From Desulfoplanes formicivorans (GTDB lineage Bacteria; Desulfobacterota; Desulfovibrionia; Desulfovibrionales; Desulfomicrobiaceae): a DNA stretch of 64,000 nt. The notes beneath the pieces were generated by a model that made no database searches, had not been told where the DNA came from, and worked only from the letters and a program-made list of their open reading frames with translations. Position numbers and translations under genes: made by a program. The stretch covers positions 186,001 to 250,000 of the forward strand of contig NZ_BDFE01000008.1 in assembly GCF_001748225.1 (NCBI RefSeq). Direction: 5' to 3'. Positions 6,537 through 16,384 of the stretch are shown one piece after another. Within the stretch, counting starts at the first letter, position 1; the number at the start of each line of letters is the position of its first letter.

Positions 6537-7931
6537 TTACTTGAACTGGGGGGCATGTATGTTCAGGCGTTTGAGGATTTTTTGCAGCGCCACCCGGGAA
6601 AGCCCGCTTTGCCGGGCGGCCTCGGAAATATTCCCATGTGCCATGACGAGCAGTTCCTCGGTATACGCTCGGGTAAAGTCGTCCACCACCTTTTCCTTGG
6701 CTTCCTTGTAGGGCGAGAGTTCCCGGGAGGTTTCCCCGGGCGTGCCATCCAGCCCTTCGACCAGACGGATGTGGGCCATGTCGATGATTTCTGACGATGA
6801 AAAAACAGCCAGTCTGCGAATGAAATTCTGTAGTTCTCGGACATTGCCGGGCCATGGTTGGGTGGTCAGATAGGCGACAGCCTCGGGGGAAAGCTTTTTG
6901 GGTTCTGCATGCATCTCCTTGCATGCGGTCTGCAGAAAGTGGTGAGCCAGCAGGGCAATATCCCCCTTGCGCTCCCGCAATGAGGGAACGTTCAGGTTGA
7001 GCACATTGAGCCGGTAGTAGAGGTCTTCGCGAAAACTATTGCCCTTGATCTTGTCCTCCAGGGGCTGGTTGGTGGAGGCCAGGATGCGAACATTCACGGA
7101 AATGGGCGTGCTTGAGCCCACGGGTCGGATCTCTCCATCCTGGAGGGCACGAAGGAGTTTTGTTTGTATGCCCGGTGAGATGTCGCCGATTTCATCCAGC
7201 AGGAGGGTGCCGCCGTCTGCAGTAACAAAAATGCCCTTGCGGTCGCGGTCGGCTCCGGTAAAGGCCCCCTTGACATGGCCGAACAATTCGCTTTCGAGCA
7301 ATTGGTCGGGAATGGCCGGACAGTTCACCGTGAGCATGGGGCGATTCTTGCGACTGCTCAATTTGTGGATGGTCCGGGCCACCAACTCCTTGCCGGTACC
7401 TGATTCCCCGCGGATGAGCACGGTGTAATCGGACAGGGCTACGGCAGCCAGTGTTTCCTTGAGCCGCACAATGGCCTTGCTTTCTCCGACCAGTTCATGG
7501 GTGCCGCATTGCTGGGCAATGACTTCCTGCAACCGGGCGTTTTCCACCAGAAGACGGCTCCGTTCCAGCCCGCGTTCAACCACCTGGAAGAGTTTGGCAG
7601 GTTCAACCGGTTTGGTCAGAAAGTCGTAGGCGCCGATTTTAAGAGCATCCACGGCTGTCTCCACGGTACCGTAGGCCGTGAGCATGACCACACTGAGATC
7701 GGGAAATTCCTCCTTGGCCTCCCTGAGTAGGGTCACGCCGTCCTTGCCGGGCATATTCAGGTCCGTCAGCATGAGCCCGAATCCGCCGTTACGCAGAAAA
7801 TCAAGTGCTTCATGTCCGGATAGGGCGGCAACGATTCGTTCATCCGGATATTCGCGTCCAAGCAGACGGGCAAGGCCGACAGCGAAATCCTTTTCATCGT
7901 CTACTATCAGGATACCAACGGGATTCTTCAA
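6537..7931 (-). CDS. NtrC-family sigma-54-dependent response regulator
   Basis: 464 residues. The receiver domain (1-120) has phospho-acceptor Asp57 in LMLTDLNMPG and the Lys of FLTKPVEP. The sigma-54 AAA+ domain has Walker A GESGTGKE (175-182), the sigma-54-contacting GAFTGA loop (222-227) and GGTLLLDEIGD. A Fis-type helix-turn-helix ends the protein (NISEAARQSGLSRVALQKILKR). All residues for activated sigma-54 transcription are present. Its start overlaps the stop of the upstream histidine kinase by 4 bases, so the two form one operon. The likely target is the divergent YeiH-transporter operon, which carries a sigma-54 promoter and a palindromic site. Confidence 0.93.
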   Translation of the reverse strand: MKNPVGILIVDDEKDFAVGLARLLGREYPDERIVAALSGHEALDFLRNGGFGLMLTDLNMPGKDGVTLLREAKEEFPDLSVVMLTAYGTVETAVDALKIGAYDFLTKPVEPAKLFQVVERGLERSRLLVENARLQEVIAQQCGTHELVGESKAIVRLKETLAAVALSDYTVLIRGESGTGKELVARTIHKLSSRKNRPMLTVNCPAIPDQLLESELFGHVKGAFTGADRDRKGIFVTADGGTLLLDEIGDISPGIQTKLLRALQDGEIRPVGSSTPISVNVRILASTNQPLEDKIKGNSFREDLYYRLNVLNLNVPSLRERKGDIALLAHHFLQTACKEMHAEPKKLSPEAVAYLTTQPWPGNVRELQNFIRRLAVFSSSEIIDMAHIRLVEGLDGTPGETSRELSPYKEAKEKVVDDFTRAYTEELLVMAHGNISEAARQSGLSRVALQKILKRLNIHAPQFK

Positions 7932-10354
7932 GCATTACCTCCATCGTGGTCACCTTTGGTGACGGGCAGGACAATGATGAACATGGCCCCGCCGTTGTTT
8001 TTGATTGTAATGGTTCCGCCCATTTCCTGGACAAGGCCGTAGACCACGGCCAATCCGAGCCCTGTACCCATGCCCACTTCCTTGGTGGAAAAAAAGGGAT
8101 CGAACAATTTTTTACTATGTTCTTTTGCAATGCCGGGGCCATTGTCGGCCACACAAATGCGGATGCTGCTGCTGTCCGGATCAAAACTCGCAGAAGCGGT
8201 TATTCGTCCCTTGTCCTGGGGCACGGCATCCAGGGCGTTTTTGAGCAGGTTGGCAAAAATCTGCTCCACGGCCTGCTCGTTGGCCAGAATGGCGGGAAGG
8301 GCATCATCAATAACCGATTCCAGTTTGATATTCTTTTTTTCCGCCTGAACGCGGAATACGCTCAGGGCATTTTTCAGGGCCTTGCCGATATCAAGCATGA
8401 CAGGCTCGGCCTTTTTGGGCCGCGCAAAGTTGAGCAGATCCTGCAACACGTTTTCAGCCTGTGCTGCATGCTTGATGATCACCTCCACATCACGCATCTG
8501 GTCATCGCCCGAGGCATTGCCCTTGAGGAGTTCGGCATAGCATCTGATCACGCCGAGGGGATTGTTGATTTCATGGGCCAGGCCTGCAGCCAGCTGACCG
8601 ACAGTGGCCAGCTTTTCGCTTTGCTGCATGGAAGCAAGCATTTGTTTTTCCTGGGTCACATCCCGAACATAGACAACGGCACGTCCCTCCCCGGGCGTCC
8701 CTTCGGACACGGGAAACACGTTGACGGAAAAGAACCTGCCATCTTCGGTTTGCACCTCGCGGTTCATGGACGTTCCCGACTCCAGTGCCACCTGAAGCGG
8801 GCAGTCTGCAAACAGCCCCTTTTGCCTGAACAAGGCGGCACATCCTTCATCGGTAATGTGGCCGCCAAATGATCGGGAAAGGTTCCGGGCCGCTTCATTG
8901 GCCAGGACCACATTGCCGGAACTGTCCATGAGCAGCAGGGGATCGCCAATGCCCTCGACAACGGCTTGCAGCATGTCCTTTTGCCAGAGCAGATTATGCA
9001 GGGCATTCAGATTTTCCATGGCAATGCCCAATTGCTGGCCCAGGGCCCGCAGGATATCGCGGTCCTGGGCGGATATCCGGGAACCTTCATCCCAGGTGAG
9101 ACAGAGAATGCCTTCGGAAGATGTCCTGGAAGCGCCAACCGGAATAAATACCTTGCCCGGTTCGAAATAGGGATTGAATTCGGTGAGAATTTCCTTCCAG
9201 TTGTCAGGGAGCCGGGGCTTGGGAGTATTCTCGGGCCAGGTGTAGTAGGATTGAGAGGCAAGCATGCAGATGAAACTGCCGTTTCTGGCCCTGAACCGTC
9301 TGACAATGATCGGCAGAGAGTAGCGCCACATCTCCCGCCGGGTGTTGCTCTTGTTGAGACCATCAAGCAATTGGACAAACAGGGCCACGTCGGTGCGTCG
9401 CTCCTCGGCTTCGATTTTCAATTCACTGGTGCGGGCTTCCACCATGTATTCCAGATTTTCAGAGTGCTGACGCAACTGGTTGTGTATTTCATGAATATGA
9501 TCGCCAAGTTCCTCAAGGCCTTGGACCATCTCTTCAATTTCGTCCACGTTGTCGAGCTTCTCAAGGGTCCCCAGTTCCGCATCTTTCTGAAAAAGCGTTC
9601 GAAATTTGTTGGATAGCCTCTGCAGGTTGGTTGCGATCAGTCGATTGAAGAATACCTGGACCAGACCAAAGAAGAACAATACGCCCAGGCCGTACAAGGC
9701 GGCATAGCCCTTGGTGGCGTTGCGGATTTTGGCCATGGCCCCATCAACAGGAACCCCGACGACCACCAGCCCGGCCACGTGATCCCTGGTGTGCCCAAAT
9801 CCCCGTTGGGTCCCGTAGCGTTCCAGCAGGACAGGAGGGGAATCTTCGGGGTTGCCATGACAGGTCAGACAGGATTCCTTGAACACGACGGGTCTGGCCT
9901 TGACAAAGTATTCCTTGCCTTCCACCTGACGAAATCCCTGCCAGTATTTCTGTCCGGGATGCTTGCGAAAGTAGGTGAGCAGTTCCTTTTCATCCGCATT
10001 GATCTCGAACAGGGGATTGCGCGCGTTCTCGGCCACTCGACGATAATGGTATTCGGAGTGGGGCATGTTCAGCTGGTCCATAATGGCCCGGGATATGTAG
10101 GATGAAGACATGGCCTCGATGATGAAATCACCTTCCGGCAATTCCTGGTAGAGGGTGGGGCGCAATGTCTCACGCACATATTGCTGAACGCTTGAAACCT
10201 GGCGAAAGACAAGATCGGCCTTGTCCCTGACCTGGCTTTCCAGGAGTGAACTGAGATGAAAATAAAGGCTCGAGGCGAAAAACATCCCCAAGAGCAGGAC
10301 AATGAGGCCGAGCCCCAGGAAGAATTTTGCCTGTAAATTTTTTGGACCAAACAC
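7928..10354 (-). CDS. Membrane histidine kinase with haem-c DUF3365 sensor domain
   Basis: 808 residues. A transmembrane helix (about 10-35) leads into an extracytoplasmic DUF3365/Tll0287-like domain holding a c-type haem motif, ESCLTCHGNP (C162, C165, H166). A second membrane helix follows (LYGLGVLFFFGLVQVFF), then a HAMP-like/coiled stretch, a GAF-like region, a PAS domain and a HisKA box (AAGLAHEINNPLG). The HATPase domain has ADNGPGI and GTGLGLAVV. Known DUF3365 proteins bind haem and are proposed redox or gas sensors. I place the start at the GTG of 10354 (GGAG 8 bases upstream); a TTG at 10372 would add 6 residues. Co-operonic with the sigma-54 regulator downstream. Confidence 0.9.
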   Translation of the reverse strand: MFGPKNLQAKFFLGLGLIVLLLGMFFASSLYFHLSSLLESQVRDKADLVFRQVSSVQQYVRETLRPTLYQELPEGDFIIEAMSSSYISRAIMDQLNMPHSEYHYRRVAENARNPLFEINADEKELLTYFRKHPGQKYWQGFRQVEGKEYFVKARPVVFKESCLTCHGNPEDSPPVLLERYGTQRGFGHTRDHVAGLVVVGVPVDGAMAKIRNATKGYAALYGLGVLFFFGLVQVFFNRLIATNLQRLSNKFRTLFQKDAELGTLEKLDNVDEIEEMVQGLEELGDHIHEIHNQLRQHSENLEYMVEARTSELKIEAEERRTDVALFVQLLDGLNKSNTRREMWRYSLPIIVRRFRARNGSFICMLASQSYYTWPENTPKPRLPDNWKEILTEFNPYFEPGKVFIPVGASRTSSEGILCLTWDEGSRISAQDRDILRALGQQLGIAMENLNALHNLLWQKDMLQAVVEGIGDPLLLMDSSGNVVLANEAARNLSRSFGGHITDEGCAALFRQKGLFADCPLQVALESGTSMNREVQTEDGRFFSVNVFPVSEGTPGEGRAVVYVRDVTQEKQMLASMQQSEKLATVGQLAAGLAHEINNPLGVIRCYAELLKGNASGDDQMRDVEVIIKHAAQAENVLQDLLNFARPKKAEPVMLDIGKALKNALSVFRVQAEKKNIKLESVIDDALPAILANEQAVEQIFANLLKNALDAVPQDKGRITASASFDPDSSSIRICVADNGPGIAKEHSKKLFDPFFSTKEVGMGTGLGLAVVYGLVQEMGGTITIKNNGGAMFIIVLPVTKGDHDGGNA

Positions 10355-10495
10355 GGTAGGTTCTCCGGGCAAGTGCCCTTTGGGTATATGCCTTCAACAT
10401 CCATGGCGGGCTGCAGAAGACCGTGGGTAACGTATTTTTACCTTTTTATCCAACCATTGGGTCGAGAGGGGGAAACGCCAACCCGGGATTGCAAA

Positions 10496-10515: not shown

Positions 10516-10578
10516 GACCAGGGTTACGGAAAAATGAAAATTTGTTTTATATCAAATAGATATCGTGTATGACAACTC

Positions 10579-10594
10579 TTGGTATACGCCTTGC
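10579..10594 (+). promoter_or_regulatory. Sigma-54 promoter of the YeiH operon
   Basis: TTGG-TATACGCC-TTGC: the invariant GG (10581-10582) and GC (10593-10594) are separated by exactly 10 bases. The predicted transcript starts near 10606, about 40 bases before the transporter ATG. Confidence 0.8.
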
Positions 10595-10647
10595 TGTATT
10601 TGGGTTCGACAACACCCATGTTAACCCAAATAAGGAGAGGTTGAGTC

Positions 10648-12288
10648 ATGTCAAATGTTAGTGTCGGACGTCCCGACAACACCCCCACCTGGATCATGAG
10701 TGGAATACTGTTGTGCTTCGGACTGCTTGTATCTTCCGGAGTACTTACTGGTCTGCTGACCACGTTCAAGGTTCACAAAGCCATCGATCTGATGGAGAGC
10801 CTTGCGTTTATTGGCGGCGGTCTTGGTGTGATCACGGCTATTTTGCGTCAGTCACGTATGGACAAACCACTGGGAAAATTTGATGTCTTCGTGTTGGAGA
10901 CCATTCCGGGCGTATTGTTCATTCTGTCACTGGCCATGGGTATCCGTTGGTTTGCCGAGCCCTTGGTCATCATGATGAGTTCTTCTTTGGTTCCGGTACT
11001 CGGATTCAAGATCCACAAGGTTTTGAACCTGAACTACGTCGTCCTGGGTATTATTGTTGGTATCATCATCACCAACAGCTGGGGCATCCCCAAGTTTGCC
11101 GCTTCCGGTGTTAAAACCGCCCGTTTTGTGCTCAAGATGGGAGTCATTCTGCTCGGTGCACGGTACTCCTTTGCTGAATTGGCCAAGCTGGGTATGGTTT
11201 CCATCTGGATGATCGGCTTTTTTGTTCTGGGTACTGTGTTTTTCGTCCTGTTTCTGGGCAAGGTTTTCAAGCAGCCCAAGTCCATGACCGGTGTTCTTTC
11301 TGCGGGCATGGGCGTGTGCGGTGTTTCGGCAACGGTTGCCTGTGCTCCGGTTGTCAAGGCCAAGTGTTCCGAAATGGCCTACACCATTGGTACCATCCTC
11401 GGTTTTGGTATCCTGTGCATGTTTGCCTTCCCGACCATTGGTAAGCTCGCGGGCATGAACGCGACCCAGTTCGGTGCCTGGGCCGGTACCGGCATCCTGA
11501 ATTCCGCTCAGGTTGCAGCCGCCTGCTTGGCATTCAACGCCGTGGATATCAAGACCCTGAAGGTCGGTGAAATTTTCAACATCACCCGTGTTCTGTTCCT
11601 GCCGGTCATCGTTCTGCTGCTGGCCACCTGGTTTGGCAAGCAGTCCGGCCAGAAACTGTCCTTCAAGGAAGTTGTCATCGACAAGTTTCCCATTTTTATT
11701 CTCGGGTTCCTGTTGCTTTTCTTCATGTCCTCTTTGGGTGTCTTCTCGCCTGCGGACCACTACAAGGGCAAGTACCTCGATTTCAGCTACAACCAGCGTA
11801 CAGAGGTCACTCCCGAGGAATTGACTGTACTCCAGAATGCCCAGCTTGCCGGCATCCCCGGTCTGAATGCCGAAGAACAGGCTGCCTTTGATGATCTTGT
11901 CAAACAGCATCAGATTGCTGGTAACTTTGAAGATCGCGACAACAAAAAGGTCTTTGACGAGACCGCCCGTGAGCGCATGCGCGGCCTGGAATCCATCCTT
12001 GCCCGGGTCAAGGGTGGTGAATTGACCCTGTCCGCAGAGGTTACCTCTGCCATCAAGCATGCGGTCAAGCAGGTTCAGAAGAAGTCCAAAACCGTTGTCA
12101 CCCTGACCGATTGCATGATCTGGTTCTTTGCGTACGGCCTTATTGGACTGGGTATGCAGATCACCCGTAAGTCCCTGGCCCAGGCAGGTGGATGGCCGCT
12201 GGTCATGGGTGGCATTTCCGGCATGGCCAAGGCCACTTTGTCCTTCATTGTCGTTATGTACTTTGTCAAAGACGTTGTCCTTCACTAA
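10648..12288 (+). CDS. YeiH/UPF0324-family transporter (putative sulfate exporter family)
   Basis: 546 residues, well above the roughly 340 of YeiH. Ten or more hydrophobic helices are visible. The central blocks GVKTARFVLKMGVILLGARYSF, GVCGVSATVACAPVVKAK and AGTGILNSAQVAAACLAF belong to the YeiH family, whose substrate is not proven though databases label it a sulfate exporter. The extra length is a leading helix set (1-100) and a hydrophilic, charged insert of about 100 residues (about 370-475) before the last two helices. Strong start: AAGGAGAGG lies upstream. Codon choice (many GGT, GTT, CGT) resembles groEL, suggesting high expression. First gene of a sigma-54-driven operon. Confidence 0.85.
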   Translation: MSNVSVGRPDNTPTWIMSGILLCFGLLVSSGVLTGLLTTFKVHKAIDLMESLAFIGGGLGVITAILRQSRMDKPLGKFDVFVLETIPGVLFILSLAMGIRWFAEPLVIMMSSSLVPVLGFKIHKVLNLNYVVLGIIVGIIITNSWGIPKFAASGVKTARFVLKMGVILLGARYSFAELAKLGMVSIWMIGFFVLGTVFFVLFLGKVFKQPKSMTGVLSAGMGVCGVSATVACAPVVKAKCSEMAYTIGTILGFGILCMFAFPTIGKLAGMNATQFGAWAGTGILNSAQVAAACLAFNAVDIKTLKVGEIFNITRVLFLPVIVLLLATWFGKQSGQKLSFKEVVIDKFPIFILGFLLLFFMSSLGVFSPADHYKGKYLDFSYNQRTEVTPEELTVLQNAQLAGIPGLNAEEQAAFDDLVKQHQIAGNFEDRDNKKVFDETARERMRGLESILARVKGGELTLSAEVTSAIKHAVKQVQKKSKTVVTLTDCMIWFFAYGLIGLGMQITRKSLAQAGGWPLVMGGISGMAKATLSFIVVMYFVKDVVLH

Positions 12289-12546: not shown

Positions 12547-12990
12547 ATGAAGCATATTCTACTCACCACACACGGAACGCCCGGTGCCCGCAAGGCAGAA
12601 GCCCTTGCCCTTGAATGGGCCCATCGCTACGGCGCAAAGGTCACCATCCTGTCCATTATCAACGAGGCCTGGGGTGACATGACCTGCGACGACTGGCTGA
12701 ATACCTCCACCACACGCAACACCTTCGGGGCCTATGTTGCTGGCGAAATATCCAAGGAGATCGGTCAGCTCTGGGATCGACTGCGCGATGAATTCCAGGG
12801 TGTTGAAATCGATTTTTTGAGCAAGGCAGGCAAGCTCGAAGATGTGCTTGCCGAGGCAGCCAGAGAGGTGGATGCCGATGTGGTGATCATGGGCGCCTGG
12901 CAGCAGGAACAGGCTCCCGGCTTCAAGGACCGTTTTGAAAACAAGCGTCTGCATCCGCAGATGCCATGCCCTTTGGTGGTGGCGCCATGA
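12547..12990 (+). CDS. Universal stress protein (UspA fold)
   Basis: 147 residues. The opening MKHILLTTHGTPGARKAEALAL and the strand VTILSIINEAW followed by DADVVIMGAW are typical of the Usp alpha/beta fold. The ATP-binding signature GxxGx9G(S/T) is not visible after MGAW, so it belongs to the non-nucleotide UspA-like class or has lost binding. The C terminus CPLVVAP is the usual final strand. It lies in the YeiH operon after a strong hairpin and overlaps the next gene by 4 bases (ATGA). Confidence 0.82.
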   Translation: MKHILLTTHGTPGARKAEALALEWAHRYGAKVTILSIINEAWGDMTCDDWLNTSTTRNTFGAYVAGEISKEIGQLWDRLRDEFQGVEIDFLSKAGKLEDVLAEAAREVDADVVIMGAWQQEQAPGFKDRFENKRLHPQMPCPLVVAP

Positions 12991-13592
12991 CCTATGCAGC
13001 TGAGACTATAGATCGTCGGGAGCGGGCCCATGCGCCCGTGAGTGAACTCCCCCGGGCCAATGTCTGGATGGAAACCAACCTGCCTTGGAATGCGTCTTTT
13101 TGGGAACAACTCCAGAGCAAAACCCTCATGCGGCTGAACCCGCATTGGCACATTGACAAGAACAAGGGGACAGGTTTTCCCGTGGAAGACGTGCTTGTGG
13201 AGACAGACTTCAGGACCACGCCCCAGATCATCGCGGGTCAAGGAACGTTCAGGGCTGTTTTCCCGGAGATCGGCCTGACCCTGGCCGCCCGTTCATGCGA
13301 GAATGGACAGAATACCTGTTTGTCTTTTAGCGTGGAAGAAAAGAACGGTTCGTTTTCAGGGGAAGATGCTGCCAGGACCATGCAATACTGGCTGCCCAGC
13401 CTGCGTGAATACTATCGGTTGTATGAAACCAACGGCTTGAAGCATCGCGTGTGGCGTTTTTTCATGAACAAGGTGATGTTGACCATGAATCCGACCCAGC
13501 GCAGGATCTGCGGATTCATGTTCAAGCTGACCGTGCTCGAATGCCTGCTCATCATTATTCTTGGGGTTGGCTGGTTTTATTACGGCGCTTAG
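12987..13592 (+). CDS. Unknown C-terminally membrane-anchored protein
   Basis: 201 residues with no recognised family. Most is soluble (about 1-165), with aromatic-rich strands and a long late helix (MQYWLPSLREYYRLYE) reminiscent of SRPBCC/START-like folds; that is a guess. A single transmembrane helix closes the protein (LECLLIIILGVGWFYY). An ATG overlapping the USP stop (ATGA) supports this start and translational coupling. Conserved position in the operon with the transporter suggests a role at the membrane alongside it. Confidence 0.7.
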   Translation: MTYAAETIDRRERAHAPVSELPRANVWMETNLPWNASFWEQLQSKTLMRLNPHWHIDKNKGTGFPVEDVLVETDFRTTPQIIAGQGTFRAVFPEIGLTLAARSCENGQNTCLSFSVEEKNGSFSGEDAARTMQYWLPSLREYYRLYETNGLKHRVWRFFMNKVMLTMNPTQRRICGFMFKLTVLECLLIIILGVGWFYYGA

Positions 13593-13603
13593 GAGATTGA
13601 GAG

Positions 13604-13912
13604 ATGCATACCAAACGACTCAAGAACATGTTCCGCCATTTTATCGTGGGGCTGGGGGCCATGACCTACCTTACATGGGGGTTTACGCTGCTCTACCAAT
13701 ACCTCGGAGTGGTCAACGACTGGCCTGGTGTGTTTCTGACCGTGGTGCATGAACCTTCTGGTGACTGGTGGCTGGATGTGGATTGGACCTCTCCGGTCCT
13801 TGTGGGTACCTTTGTGTGCACAACCCTGGCGGCCTTGGTGTACGCTGTTGTGCGACGCGACGATTATCTTGGCTATCGGGAATCCGAAATTCAGAGCCAA
13901 TCAGGATTCTAG
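13604..13912 (+). CDS. Unknown small two-helix membrane protein
   Basis: 102 residues with two hydrophobic segments (about 13-34 and 67-83: LVGTFVCTTLAALVYAVV) separated by a Trp-rich loop (EPSGDWWLDVDWTSP). The protein ends in a charged tail. It starts 11 bases after the preceding gene with GGAGATTGAG upstream. Not recognised; its order after the 201-residue anchored protein suggests both act together in the membrane. Confidence 0.7.
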   Translation: MHTKRLKNMFRHFIVGLGAMTYLTWGFTLLYQYLGVVNDWPGVFLTVVHEPSGDWWLDVDWTSPVLVGTFVCTTLAALVYAVVRRDDYLGYRESEIQSQSGF

Positions 13913-14073
13913 CCCTCCTTCAGGAGTCTCCTTTGACTCCATGCTTTTTCCCTCCGCATTGTCTTGGGCGTTGGCAGCCCGGGTGAGTTGTGCTACTTAT
14001 GCTGTGCACTACCCGTTTTGTCTGTCCAGACTGAGCTCTCGCCCATACCCGGTTCGGGATGATCGGAGGAAGC

Positions 14074-15351
14074 ATGTGGAGCGCCCTGGAAAATATCGCC
14101 TTTCGAGAGAGTCTTCCGATGCCGTTGTGTGCGGGAGATTCCATCTGCGGAGTTCTTGTCTCCGGCCAGATCAATCGAGGGCGCTTCAACCTGCAGTATC
14201 TCGGCCGAAGGCGCTGCAAACCCTATCTGCTCAAGCAATTCTACTGCCTGAATACCAACGCCTTTCTGCGTTGGCAAAACGAGGCGCGTTTCATCGAACT
14301 CCCTCAAATAGACGGATACATCTGGCCATGTGACGAATGGCGGGGCGGGGTGATCGCTCCCTGGCCCGAAGGTGTTCCCCTGTATGCATGGCTTCGGGCC
14401 AAACCCAGGAACCTGCCGGCCCGGATCGGCGTGGGCCTTGGTCTGGCCAGATGCATGGCCCGTCTGCATGATGCGGGCATCATCCACAGAAACCTTTCTT
14501 CATCCTGTGTCTGGATAAGCGAAAAAAACATTCAGATCAGCGACTTTGGCGCTGCCTGCCATGAACGGTGGGATGATTTCTGGAACGACTCCATGCCACC
14601 CTGCGGGTCCCCGGCTTATGCCTCGCCTGAAGCCTTGCACGGGAAAAAATCCGGTCCTGCAAAGGATATGTATGCCCTGGGAGGGCTTCTCTACCTTCTT
14701 CTGGCTGACAGACCGCCGTTTAACAGGCTGAAATTATTGATCAGAAAGCGTATCCCGTGGGATATTCTCCCTGATACCCTGCCACCTGTCCGGGAAGTTC
14801 CGCCCTCATTGTATGACGGCATCACGGCCTGTATGGCCGGAAATCCTGCCAATCGTCCCACCGCCCATGAGGTTGCCAGCATTCTGGCCGAGTATGGTGA
14901 ATGGGACGACCAGGACACACAGATCGTGTTGCCCCCGCTTCGTTTCAACAATCGTCATCGGCAGCGCATCATGGTCTTCATCAAGGGAGACGAGCGAGCA
15001 GCCTCCTTGTTTGATGCCGCCATAGAGCAGGCTTTGGCAGAACCCTCCCTTTTTCTGTTTGTGGGTCTGGTTCCCGGGAACCTGCCAAGCGGTCATCTGG
15101 AGCGTTTCAAGGGCAGTCTCTACCGCAAGCTGGCCCAGGGGCTGATACGGTGCCGCAGGCATCATCTTATATGGAGTCTGCGCCTTTTGGAAACGATTGT
15201 TCCGGAATACACGGCCCTGAAACTGATCAGACAATATCGTCCCATGCAGGTCTTTCTCGGGAAGGCGACATCCAGGCCTGGCAGCGTGTTTTGTCGGTGT
15301 CTTAAGCGCCAGACAGCCCGTGAGAATATCGGTATCACCCATATTATTTGA
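14074..15351 (+). CDS. Pseudokinase with USP-like C-terminal domain
   Basis: 425 residues. Residues about 25-290 form a Ser/Thr kinase-like domain. It has a possible ATP Lys in PYLLKQF, the catalytic-loop remnant IIHRNLSSSC (residues 136-145), an intact DFG (157-159) and GSPAYASPEAL as activation-segment end. The HRD Asp is Asn, the following Lys is Ser and the loop Asn is Cys, so phosphotransfer is unlikely: a pseudokinase. From about residue 300 the sequence (RQRIMVFIKGDERAASLF...LFLFVGLVPGNL) looks like a universal-stress-protein fold; this is less certain. The start at 14074 follows GGAGGAAGC. It is 161 bases after the 102-residue protein and may be the last gene of the operon. Confidence 0.75.
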   Translation: MWSALENIAFRESLPMPLCAGDSICGVLVSGQINRGRFNLQYLGRRRCKPYLLKQFYCLNTNAFLRWQNEARFIELPQIDGYIWPCDEWRGGVIAPWPEGVPLYAWLRAKPRNLPARIGVGLGLARCMARLHDAGIIHRNLSSSCVWISEKNIQISDFGAACHERWDDFWNDSMPPCGSPAYASPEALHGKKSGPAKDMYALGGLLYLLLADRPPFNRLKLLIRKRIPWDILPDTLPPVREVPPSLYDGITACMAGNPANRPTAHEVASILAEYGEWDDQDTQIVLPPLRFNNRHRQRIMVFIKGDERAASLFDAAIEQALAEPSLFLFVGLVPGNLPSGHLERFKGSLYRKLAQGLIRCRRHHLIWSLRLLETIVPEYTALKLIRQYRPMQVFLGKATSRPGSVFCRCLKRQTARENIGITHII

Positions 15352-15484: not shown

Positions 15485-16198
15485 TTATGGCGTCATCATG
15501 AATCCGGCCATACCCAGAACAAATCCCAAAACAGCGCCCATGGGAGGGGCCCAGTATGTTTCGAGTTTTGCCTGTGGGGCAATATCCTGAAATATGGAAT
15601 AGAGAATGCCGCCGGATGCAAAAAGCATGATGGCGGCAACAATGGCGGGATTATCCTGCAACCACAGGTACCCGGACACACCCACCAGGGGGCCGAGTAG
15701 GGCCATCACGGCAAAGATGAGTACGATTGTTCGTGAACTGTATGAAGAAGACGCTTTGAGTTCACAATAGGCATTGAACCCCTCCGGAAGATTTTGCAAG
15801 GCTATCAAACCGGCAAGTACAAACACACTGCTTTTGCCTGTGGCGAACGCAGCGCCCAGGGCAATTGACTCGGGTATAAAATCGGAAAGCATGGCAGTCA
15901 GTTGACTTGCAGCGGTATCTATTTTTTTGAGGATGATATCAACGAACATAAAGCTCAGTCCGCCAGCTATAAAGAAGAGGGAAGCGGACCAGGGTTTAAA
16001 ACGGGTGATTCCCTCGGGCACCAGAACAAGGGCAACTGCAGACAGAAGCGCACCCCCTCCAAAGGCCATGACGCCATGACGGAACTCTTTTTCAAGCCAT
16101 TCCGGTTTGAATTGTTCACGCGAGGCAAAGGCCGCGCCTATCGGCATGGCCAGACCAGCCAGGAGGGTTGATGCAATGACCAAAAACAGCGGATGCAT
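15485..16198 (-). CDS. ZIP-family divalent metal transporter, atypical metal motifs
   Basis: 237 residues, about eight membrane helices. It has the ZIP-type blocks FGGGALLSAVALVLVPEG, DFIPESIALGAAF and LQNLPEGFNAY. In ordinary ZIP proteins helix 4 carries H-(S/N)-x-x-(D/E)-G and helix 5 H-E-x-P-E-G. Here the corresponding His residues appear as Asp (DFIPES) and Gln-Asn (QNLPEG), so selectivity may differ. Start at 16198 is supported by CGGAGG; the longer frame to 16294 has no ribosome site. It lies downstream of the chemoreceptor gene but a terminator separates them. Confidence 0.8.
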   Translation of the reverse strand: MHPLFLVIASTLLAGLAMPIGAAFASREQFKPEWLEKEFRHGVMAFGGGALLSAVALVLVPEGITRFKPWSASLFFIAGGLSFMFVDIILKKIDTAASQLTAMLSDFIPESIALGAAFATGKSSVFVLAGLIALQNLPEGFNAYCELKASSSYSSRTIVLIFAVMALLGPLVGVSGYLWLQDNPAIVAAIMLFASGGILYSIFQDIAPQAKLETYWAPPMGAVLGFVLGMAGFMMTP

Positions 16199-16384
16199 GG
16201 TTTCCTCCGGGGAAATAGTTGTTTGTATGACAACAATCAGGTTGACGTCTGGAAACCTTATGCCTGCCTGGTTGTCGGTGCTGGCATACCCCATTTTAAG
16301 TGGTTTGGACAGACGCGGTTGGGGGTTGATGGCGTCTGATTCTTGTGATGACAGGCATCTCTTGGGTTGATGATCAGCTTAATG

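Follow-up and report, generated by a model that had tools for sequence, protein, structure and literature searches.

A universal-stress-protein-fused pseudokinase in a PSE-type transporter cassette of sulfate-reducing bacteria

Introduction

Pseudokinases, defined by the loss of at least one of the β3 lysine, the HRD aspartate and the DFG aspartate, have functions in bacteria that a 2025 review described as unknown and largely unexplored (PMC12599244). The Hanks-type families it covers, ActPs1-3, GLW, CP1, DYD and DLHK, resemble the protein described here: they are bacterial, have the Ser/Thr kinase fold and have lost catalytic motifs. ActPs2 even shares the change of HRD to HRN, but it has arginine for the β3 lysine, has usually lost DFG, carries large insertions and transmembrane segments and is actinobacterial (PMC12599244), whereas our protein keeps K54 and DFG and has loops of canonical length. 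CP1 differs in being linked to COG3899 (PMC12599244). The review makes no mention of universal stress proteins (USPs), Desulfo- organisms or transporters.

Proteins with both kinase and USP domains are known. STYK-USPA fusions were noted in Mesorhizobium, Bradyrhizobium and Nitrosomonas in 2005 (PMC1262709), and plants have USP-kinases. These are reported as kinases with a recognised USPA domain (N-terminal in Nitrosomonas ABC1), whereas our protein combines a dead kinase with a C-terminal USP domain that has diverged too far for Pfam to recognise.

The surrounding genes also have described counterparts. The Desulfovibrio vulgaris clusters DVU0539-0545 and DVU3298-3305 similarly combine a histidine kinase and response regulator, a transporter of the putative sulfate exporter (PSE) type or a putative anion transporter, USPs and a small membrane protein, but descriptions of them include neither a protein kinase nor a pseudokinase. 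Molybdate and chlorate phenotypes have been measured for the D. vulgaris PSE/USP/two-component clusters (PMC10102598), and two PSE transporters of that species are co-regulated with lactate genes (PMC4641369). In Salmonella, resistance to sulfite is driven by YeiH (PMC12880088); the transporter of our cassette falls below the YeiH subfamily cut-off.

USPs acting on transporters have precedents in Rv2623-Rv1747 of M. tuberculosis, TeaD-TeaABC of Halomonas and UspC-KdpD (PMC5549992). The first two tie a USP to a transporter, as our cassette may, and in Rv2623-Rv1747 the tie goes through Thr phosphorylation (PMC5549992). Neither has a USP-pseudokinase fusion; a distinct, active kinase does the phosphorylating, and the transporters are unrelated to ours.

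The window analysed here is a 64,000-nucleotide stretch of the Desulfoplanes formicivorans genome. It encodes a 425-residue protein (Table 1) that we identify with high confidence as a pseudokinase-USP fusion, with a kinase fold at residues 22-276 and a USP fold at residues 297-425. In the literature searched we found no description of this combination, of its conservation in an exporter cassette or of a series from intact to dead members; the parts are of known kinds. The motif states, the cassette linkage and the selection are shown, and so are the folds, as predicted models. A preliminary description of this DNA is supported in part, the transporter and two-component cassette and the intact relatives having been absent from it.

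Table 1. Features of the cassette and of the fusion protein, with positions in the window.
Feature	Position	Strand	Evidence
Sigma54-dependent response regulator, contains GAFTGA	6537..7931	-	Sigma54_activat E 8e-67, Response_reg E 8e-26
Sensor histidine kinase, Tll0287-like domain, CxxCH haem-c motif	7928..10372	-	PF11845 E 2.9e-35, HisKA, HATPase
Sigma54-type -24/-12 site, CTTGGTATACGCCTTGCTG	10578..10596	+	like site 5' of transporter in 14/18 other cassettes
YeiH / putative sulfate exporter (PSE) family transporter	10648..12288	+	PF03601 E 1.3e-47
Free-standing USP, MKHILL start	12547..12990	+	PF00582 E 4.9e-8
Cassette protein, about 200 aa, C-terminal hydrophobic segment	12987..13592	+	no Pfam/NCBIfam family; conserved in cassettes
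102-aa protein, two hydrophobic segments	13604..13912	+	27/348 genomes
Pseudokinase-USP fusion protein, 425 aa	14074..15351	+	ORF, Pfam, model; 22 full-length homologues
Pseudokinase domain, residues 22-276	14137..14901	+	Pfam Pkinase; AlphaFold model pLDDT 88.5; VIA-align
Lys54, β3 ATP-binding lysine, kept	14233..14235	+	11/11 in window clade
Glu70, αC glutamate, kept, within family motif FLxWQxExR	14281..14283	+	alignment, tree rows
Catalytic loop, HRNLSSSCVW; N140 in place of the HRD Asp, S142 of Lys, C145 of Asn	14485..14514	+	alignment
DFG, D157-F158-G159, kept	14542..14550	+	alignment
WDDFW of activation segment, Asp168 and Trp170 invariant	14569..14583	+	22/22 aligned members, dead or intact
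USP fold, residues 297-425, degenerate ATP motif	14962..15348	+	AlphaFold2 model, Foldseek, VIA-align

Results

A kinase domain without its catalytic residues

The ATG of the fusion gene is preceded directly by GGAGGA, and the MW start is common to nearly all homologues in the alignment. Pfam PF00069 (Pkinase) matches with E 1.2e-19 (71.1 bits against a cut-off of 31.7; best stretch residues 124-268) and the model of the kinase part aligns with solved kinases over residues 22-276 at a VIA-align Z of 23.8 (251 residues at 2.5 Å), together giving a two-lobe kinase-like fold. The β3 lysine, αC glutamate and DFG aspartate of an active Hanks-type Ser/Thr kinase are present (K54, E70, D157), while the HRD aspartate, loop lysine and loop asparagine are replaced (N140, S142, C145). 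The preliminary description had read the motifs in the same way: HRN for HRD (H138-R139-N140), Ser and Cys for the loop lysine and asparagine, and a DFG (residues 157-159) and APE-like segment (ASPE, residues 183-186) both kept. Having lost the HRD aspartate, the protein falls within the sequence definition of a pseudokinase. The claim of the preliminary description that the kinase is catalytically dead is also well supported, judged by sequence, with all three catalytic residues replaced.

A defence reading was rejected: the PADLOC and NCBIfam matches (MAD6, PD-T4-6) span the generic kinase part alone, those of NCBIfam far below cut-off. The same genome has another Hanks kinase, at the L107:3789-5189 (-) / L107:6014-6955 (-) locus, which is catalytically intact (HRDIKPFN and DFG) and lies near a tandem USP, from which a metallophosphoesterase-like gene separates it; it serves as a neighbour-independent control.

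Graded loss across the family

We built a tree of 22 members, rooted on L073 and L075, an assumption resting on their separate family. These two keep the β3 lysine, αC glutamate, HHDLKPEN and DFG and sit in the same cassette as the dead members. As the full catalytic set matches that of ordinary kinases, we infer that it is the ancestral state. The clade holding the window protein (11 rows, support 100/100; the window clade) has kept the β3 lysine and αC glutamate in 11/11 members and the DFG aspartate in 9/11. Its HRD aspartate is gone from 10/11, replaced by N, G, S or C, its loop lysine is Ser or Thr in all 11 and its loop asparagine is gone from 10. One member of this dead clade, L065:5474-6739, has HRD (HRDLSLNTI), with the lysine and asparagine still lost; its HRD reflects either a reversion or a separate history of loss. 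In a third clade arginine replaces the β3 lysine, mostly glutamine replaces the glutamate and the DFG aspartate is absent.

The kinase cleft of the window protein may still bind nucleotide, as Lys54, Glu70 and, in most of the clade, the DFG aspartate are kept. Pseudokinases of the HRN type, HER3 among them, bind ATP and retain a trace of activity. The protein might thus be a weak or unconventional kinase, in which the retained lysine, glutamate and DFG bind Mg-ATP, another residue acts as base and the changes tune phosphotransfer, and the HRD of L065 is in keeping with this. We think it rather unlikely, as the HRD aspartate, loop lysine and loop asparagine have been lost together in most of the clade, the drift of the HRD position between N, G, S and C amounts to no specific substitution, and the sister clade lacks the lysine and DFG as well.

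SelO shows the same broad pattern, keeping nucleotide-binding residues while losing the catalytic base, and the fold could have been repurposed for another nucleotide transfer, AMPylation or glutamylation, as in SelO or SidJ. This we regard as very unlikely: the loop residues vary, with no conserved new polar residue to mark a replacement active site, and the fold persists in the related clade, where Lys and DFG are lost, so that a role shared by the clades would be independent of those residues. The wider suggestion of the preliminary description, a scaffold rather than a phosphorylating enzyme, fits the loss of catalytic residues clade-wide under purifying selection.

The C-terminal domain

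Sequence searches gave no proof of a USP in the C-terminal part. PF00582 (Usp) had no Pfam match in the window protein and only one below cut-off in the homologue L070 (E 0.015, over most of the model); profile-profile comparison with the free-standing USP of the cassette by hhalign was not significant (probability 3.8%), and a PDB sequence-profile search with this part returned no USPs among its matches. Structure prediction settled the question. Built from 20 sequences, the AlphaFold2 model of residues 291-425 has a pLDDT of 90.5, and USPs head its Foldseek list (best E 3e-6). By VIA-align its best USP is that of L. plantarum (Z 15.9, 128 residues, 2.4 Å), followed by MJ0577 (15.0), TeaD (14.3) and the KdpD USP domain (13.8), against a Z of about 11 or less for unrelated α/β folds. 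The assignment of a USP α/β fold is thus well supported by the model, and the Usp-like fold that had been proposed for the last 125 residues is upheld. A 2021 survey of Desulfovibrionaceae USPs was based on pfam00582 (PMC8401546); that model is blind to this domain.

Only the first glycine of the ATP motif G-2x-G-9x-G-(S/T) is retained in the USP part of the window protein, in an alignment that left out rows L100, L102 and L103, which places it outside the ATP-binding subfamily and makes nucleotide binding by this domain doubtful. The free-standing USP also lacks the motif in the alignment. The nucleotide sensing proposed earlier therefore stands only in part, being compatible with the residues kept in the kinase cleft and at odds with the reduced USP motif.

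The cassette and its regulators

Among the 23 carriers of the fusion gene, 19 share one gene order: the response regulator and histidine kinase lie together on one strand, and the opposite strand carries the transporter, USP, a gene for a protein of about 200 residues, one for a protein of about 100 residues and, last, the pseudokinase-USP gene. One of the 19, L075, has the histidine kinase downstream rather than divergent, and the domains of the response regulator were confirmed for the window alone. The fusion had been described as downstream of a free-standing USP, and so it is, with two small genes between them, in what proves to be a conserved cassette. The MTYAAET start of the first of these small genes overlaps the stop of the USP gene. 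In the window 162 bases separate the fusion gene from the gene before it, a stretch that includes a weak terminator-like hairpin (13923-13940), and co-transcription is putative.

The transporter is predicted to be of the PSE type and outside the YeiH subfamily model, since PF03601 is well above its cut-off and TIGR00698 scores 91 bits, short of its 232.6. The two small proteins, at 12987-13592 and 13604-13912, matched no Pfam or NCBIfam family at threshold; strongly conserved beside the PSE transporter and USP, they are possible unrecognised exporter subunits. The histidine kinase (7928-10372), with its CxxCH motif and divergent from the exporter operon, is a probable haem-c redox sensor.

Of the 27 genomes with the 102-aa gene, 22 carry the fusion. 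In the remaining five cassettes (G098, G260, G271, G278, G297) the fusion gene is missing and a search for remnants found none, so it is dispensable to the core cassette. Conversely, the fusion gene is unlinked to the cassette in G281, G289 and G314, and in G276 is present without the 102-aa gene. These exceptions, and the position of the cassette under a two-component system, would suit an adaptor for another target, the histidine kinase, the response regulator or something outside the cassette, with the operon reflecting co-expression only; E. coli UspC, for example, scaffolds KdpD/KdpE (cited in PMC5549992). We consider such a target unlikely. The core cassette is present elsewhere in the genome of three of the four unlinked carriers, which points to a tie with the cassette as a whole.

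Distribution and transfer

A search for the same fusion elsewhere, as had been proposed, found a family of full-length members in 23 of 348 genomes of the order, that of the window included. Two carriers belong to one other family and the rest, the window apart, to a third family and mostly to one genus, Pseudodesulfovibrio. Searched on its own, the C-terminal domain had no match in a sample of 296 other genomes of the phylum. Generic kinases or kinase domains were all that came from the phylum profile search, the plasmid search (none covering 80% of the query) and the viral structure library. A scan of named-genome contigs with the single sequence found no relative, and an alignment-based scan found four.

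In a tree of the cassette with the kinase left out the window nests in a mostly Pseudodesulfovibrio group (15 rows, support 100/100), and its kinase falls likewise inside a mostly Pseudodesulfovibrio group in the kinase tree. Neither the 102-aa gene nor the kinase was found in any of 21 sampled genomes of the window's own family. Given both observations, the window's genome is likely to have gained the whole cassette horizontally, the alternative being loss in all the other sampled relatives.

Selection on the dead members

The dead kinase domains are under purifying selection, with a dN/dS of 0.11-0.17 in four of the pairs compared and 0.33 in the remaining one, the window protein itself standing outside these pairs because dS is saturated between it and L055. 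These values show that the dead members are not pseudogenes, and they contradict the reading of the gene as a relic of a kinase, functionless and in decay. Decay might produce both the stepwise disappearance of catalytic residues and the absence of the gene from several cassettes. Set against them, besides the dN/dS of 0.11-0.33, are a frame that is open in nearly all homologues, 46 kinase-domain columns, structural residues among them, that are invariant throughout the window clade, and a well-conserved USP domain, and we hold decay to be highly improbable.

Conservation is unevenly spread. In every pair within the two dead clades conservation is higher in the N-lobe than in the C-lobe (55/55 pairs, 0.67 against 0.43; 15/15 pairs, 0.58 against 0.35), and in 68 of the 70 the USP domain, too, exceeds the C-lobe; the single intact pair is reversed (N-lobe 0.40, C-lobe 0.52). 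The pairs are not independent and there is one intact pair only. As controls, 24 other kinases of the order have no overall lobe bias (0.35 against 0.35), but their closest band (13 pairs) leans to the N-lobe in the same way, more weakly (0.70 against 0.59). Our reading is that in the dead clades constraint may have left the catalytic C-lobe for interaction surfaces. The αC motif FLxWQ...R is nearly invariant, and D168 and W170 invariant, in dead and intact members alike, which suggests a binding surface shared by both.

Discussion

We favour, at about a 50% probability, the reading that the fusion is a non-phosphorylating and perhaps nucleotide-binding adaptor on the exporter cassette, its partner and effect both being inferred. 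The ancestor would have been an active kinase acting on a component of the cassette. Descendants of the window type would have lost phosphotransfer and would use the N-lobe and USP domain to go on binding the partner of that ancestor, and the adaptor, together with the free USP, would tune the YeiH/PSE exporter post-translationally. In the eukaryotic pseudokinases HER3 and KSR nucleotide occupancy sets the shape of the protein, and the retained Lys54-Glu70-DFG set may allow the same here.

The adaptor reading draws on the motif loss, the intact relatives in the cassette, the dN/dS values, the constraint shift, the USP fold, the linkage in 19 of 23 carriers, with a core cassette elsewhere in the genome of three of the others, and the precedents of USPs acting on transporters. 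Counted against it are the five kinase-less cassettes, the HRD of L065, the 162-base gap and hairpin and the missing USP ATP motif, together with the single intact pair, the non-independence of the pairs and the N-lobe lean of the closest controls.

A broader proposal, which we hold tentatively and at less than even odds, is that one operon's kinase gene has passed from intact, through phosphotransfer-dead with the nucleotide site kept, as in the window, to fully degenerate, while selection shifted towards the N-lobe and USP domain, and that the result may be a switch for an oxyanion exporter, fused to a USP and working independently of phosphorylation. Here a pseudokinase comes with an operon, likely partners (USP, PSE transporter and two small membrane proteins), a regulator and relatives from active to dead, and this natural series in sulfate reducers makes the role of a non-phosphorylating kinase directly testable. 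It may also explain how PSE/YeiH exporters are controlled, transporters recently tied to sulfite resistance in Salmonella (PMC12880088) and, in Desulfovibrio, to molybdate stress (PMC10102598).

The neighbouring gene at 15485-16294 (-) encodes a 269-aa membrane protein that has no Pfam match above cut-off and, by eye, the look of a ZIP-type metal transporter.
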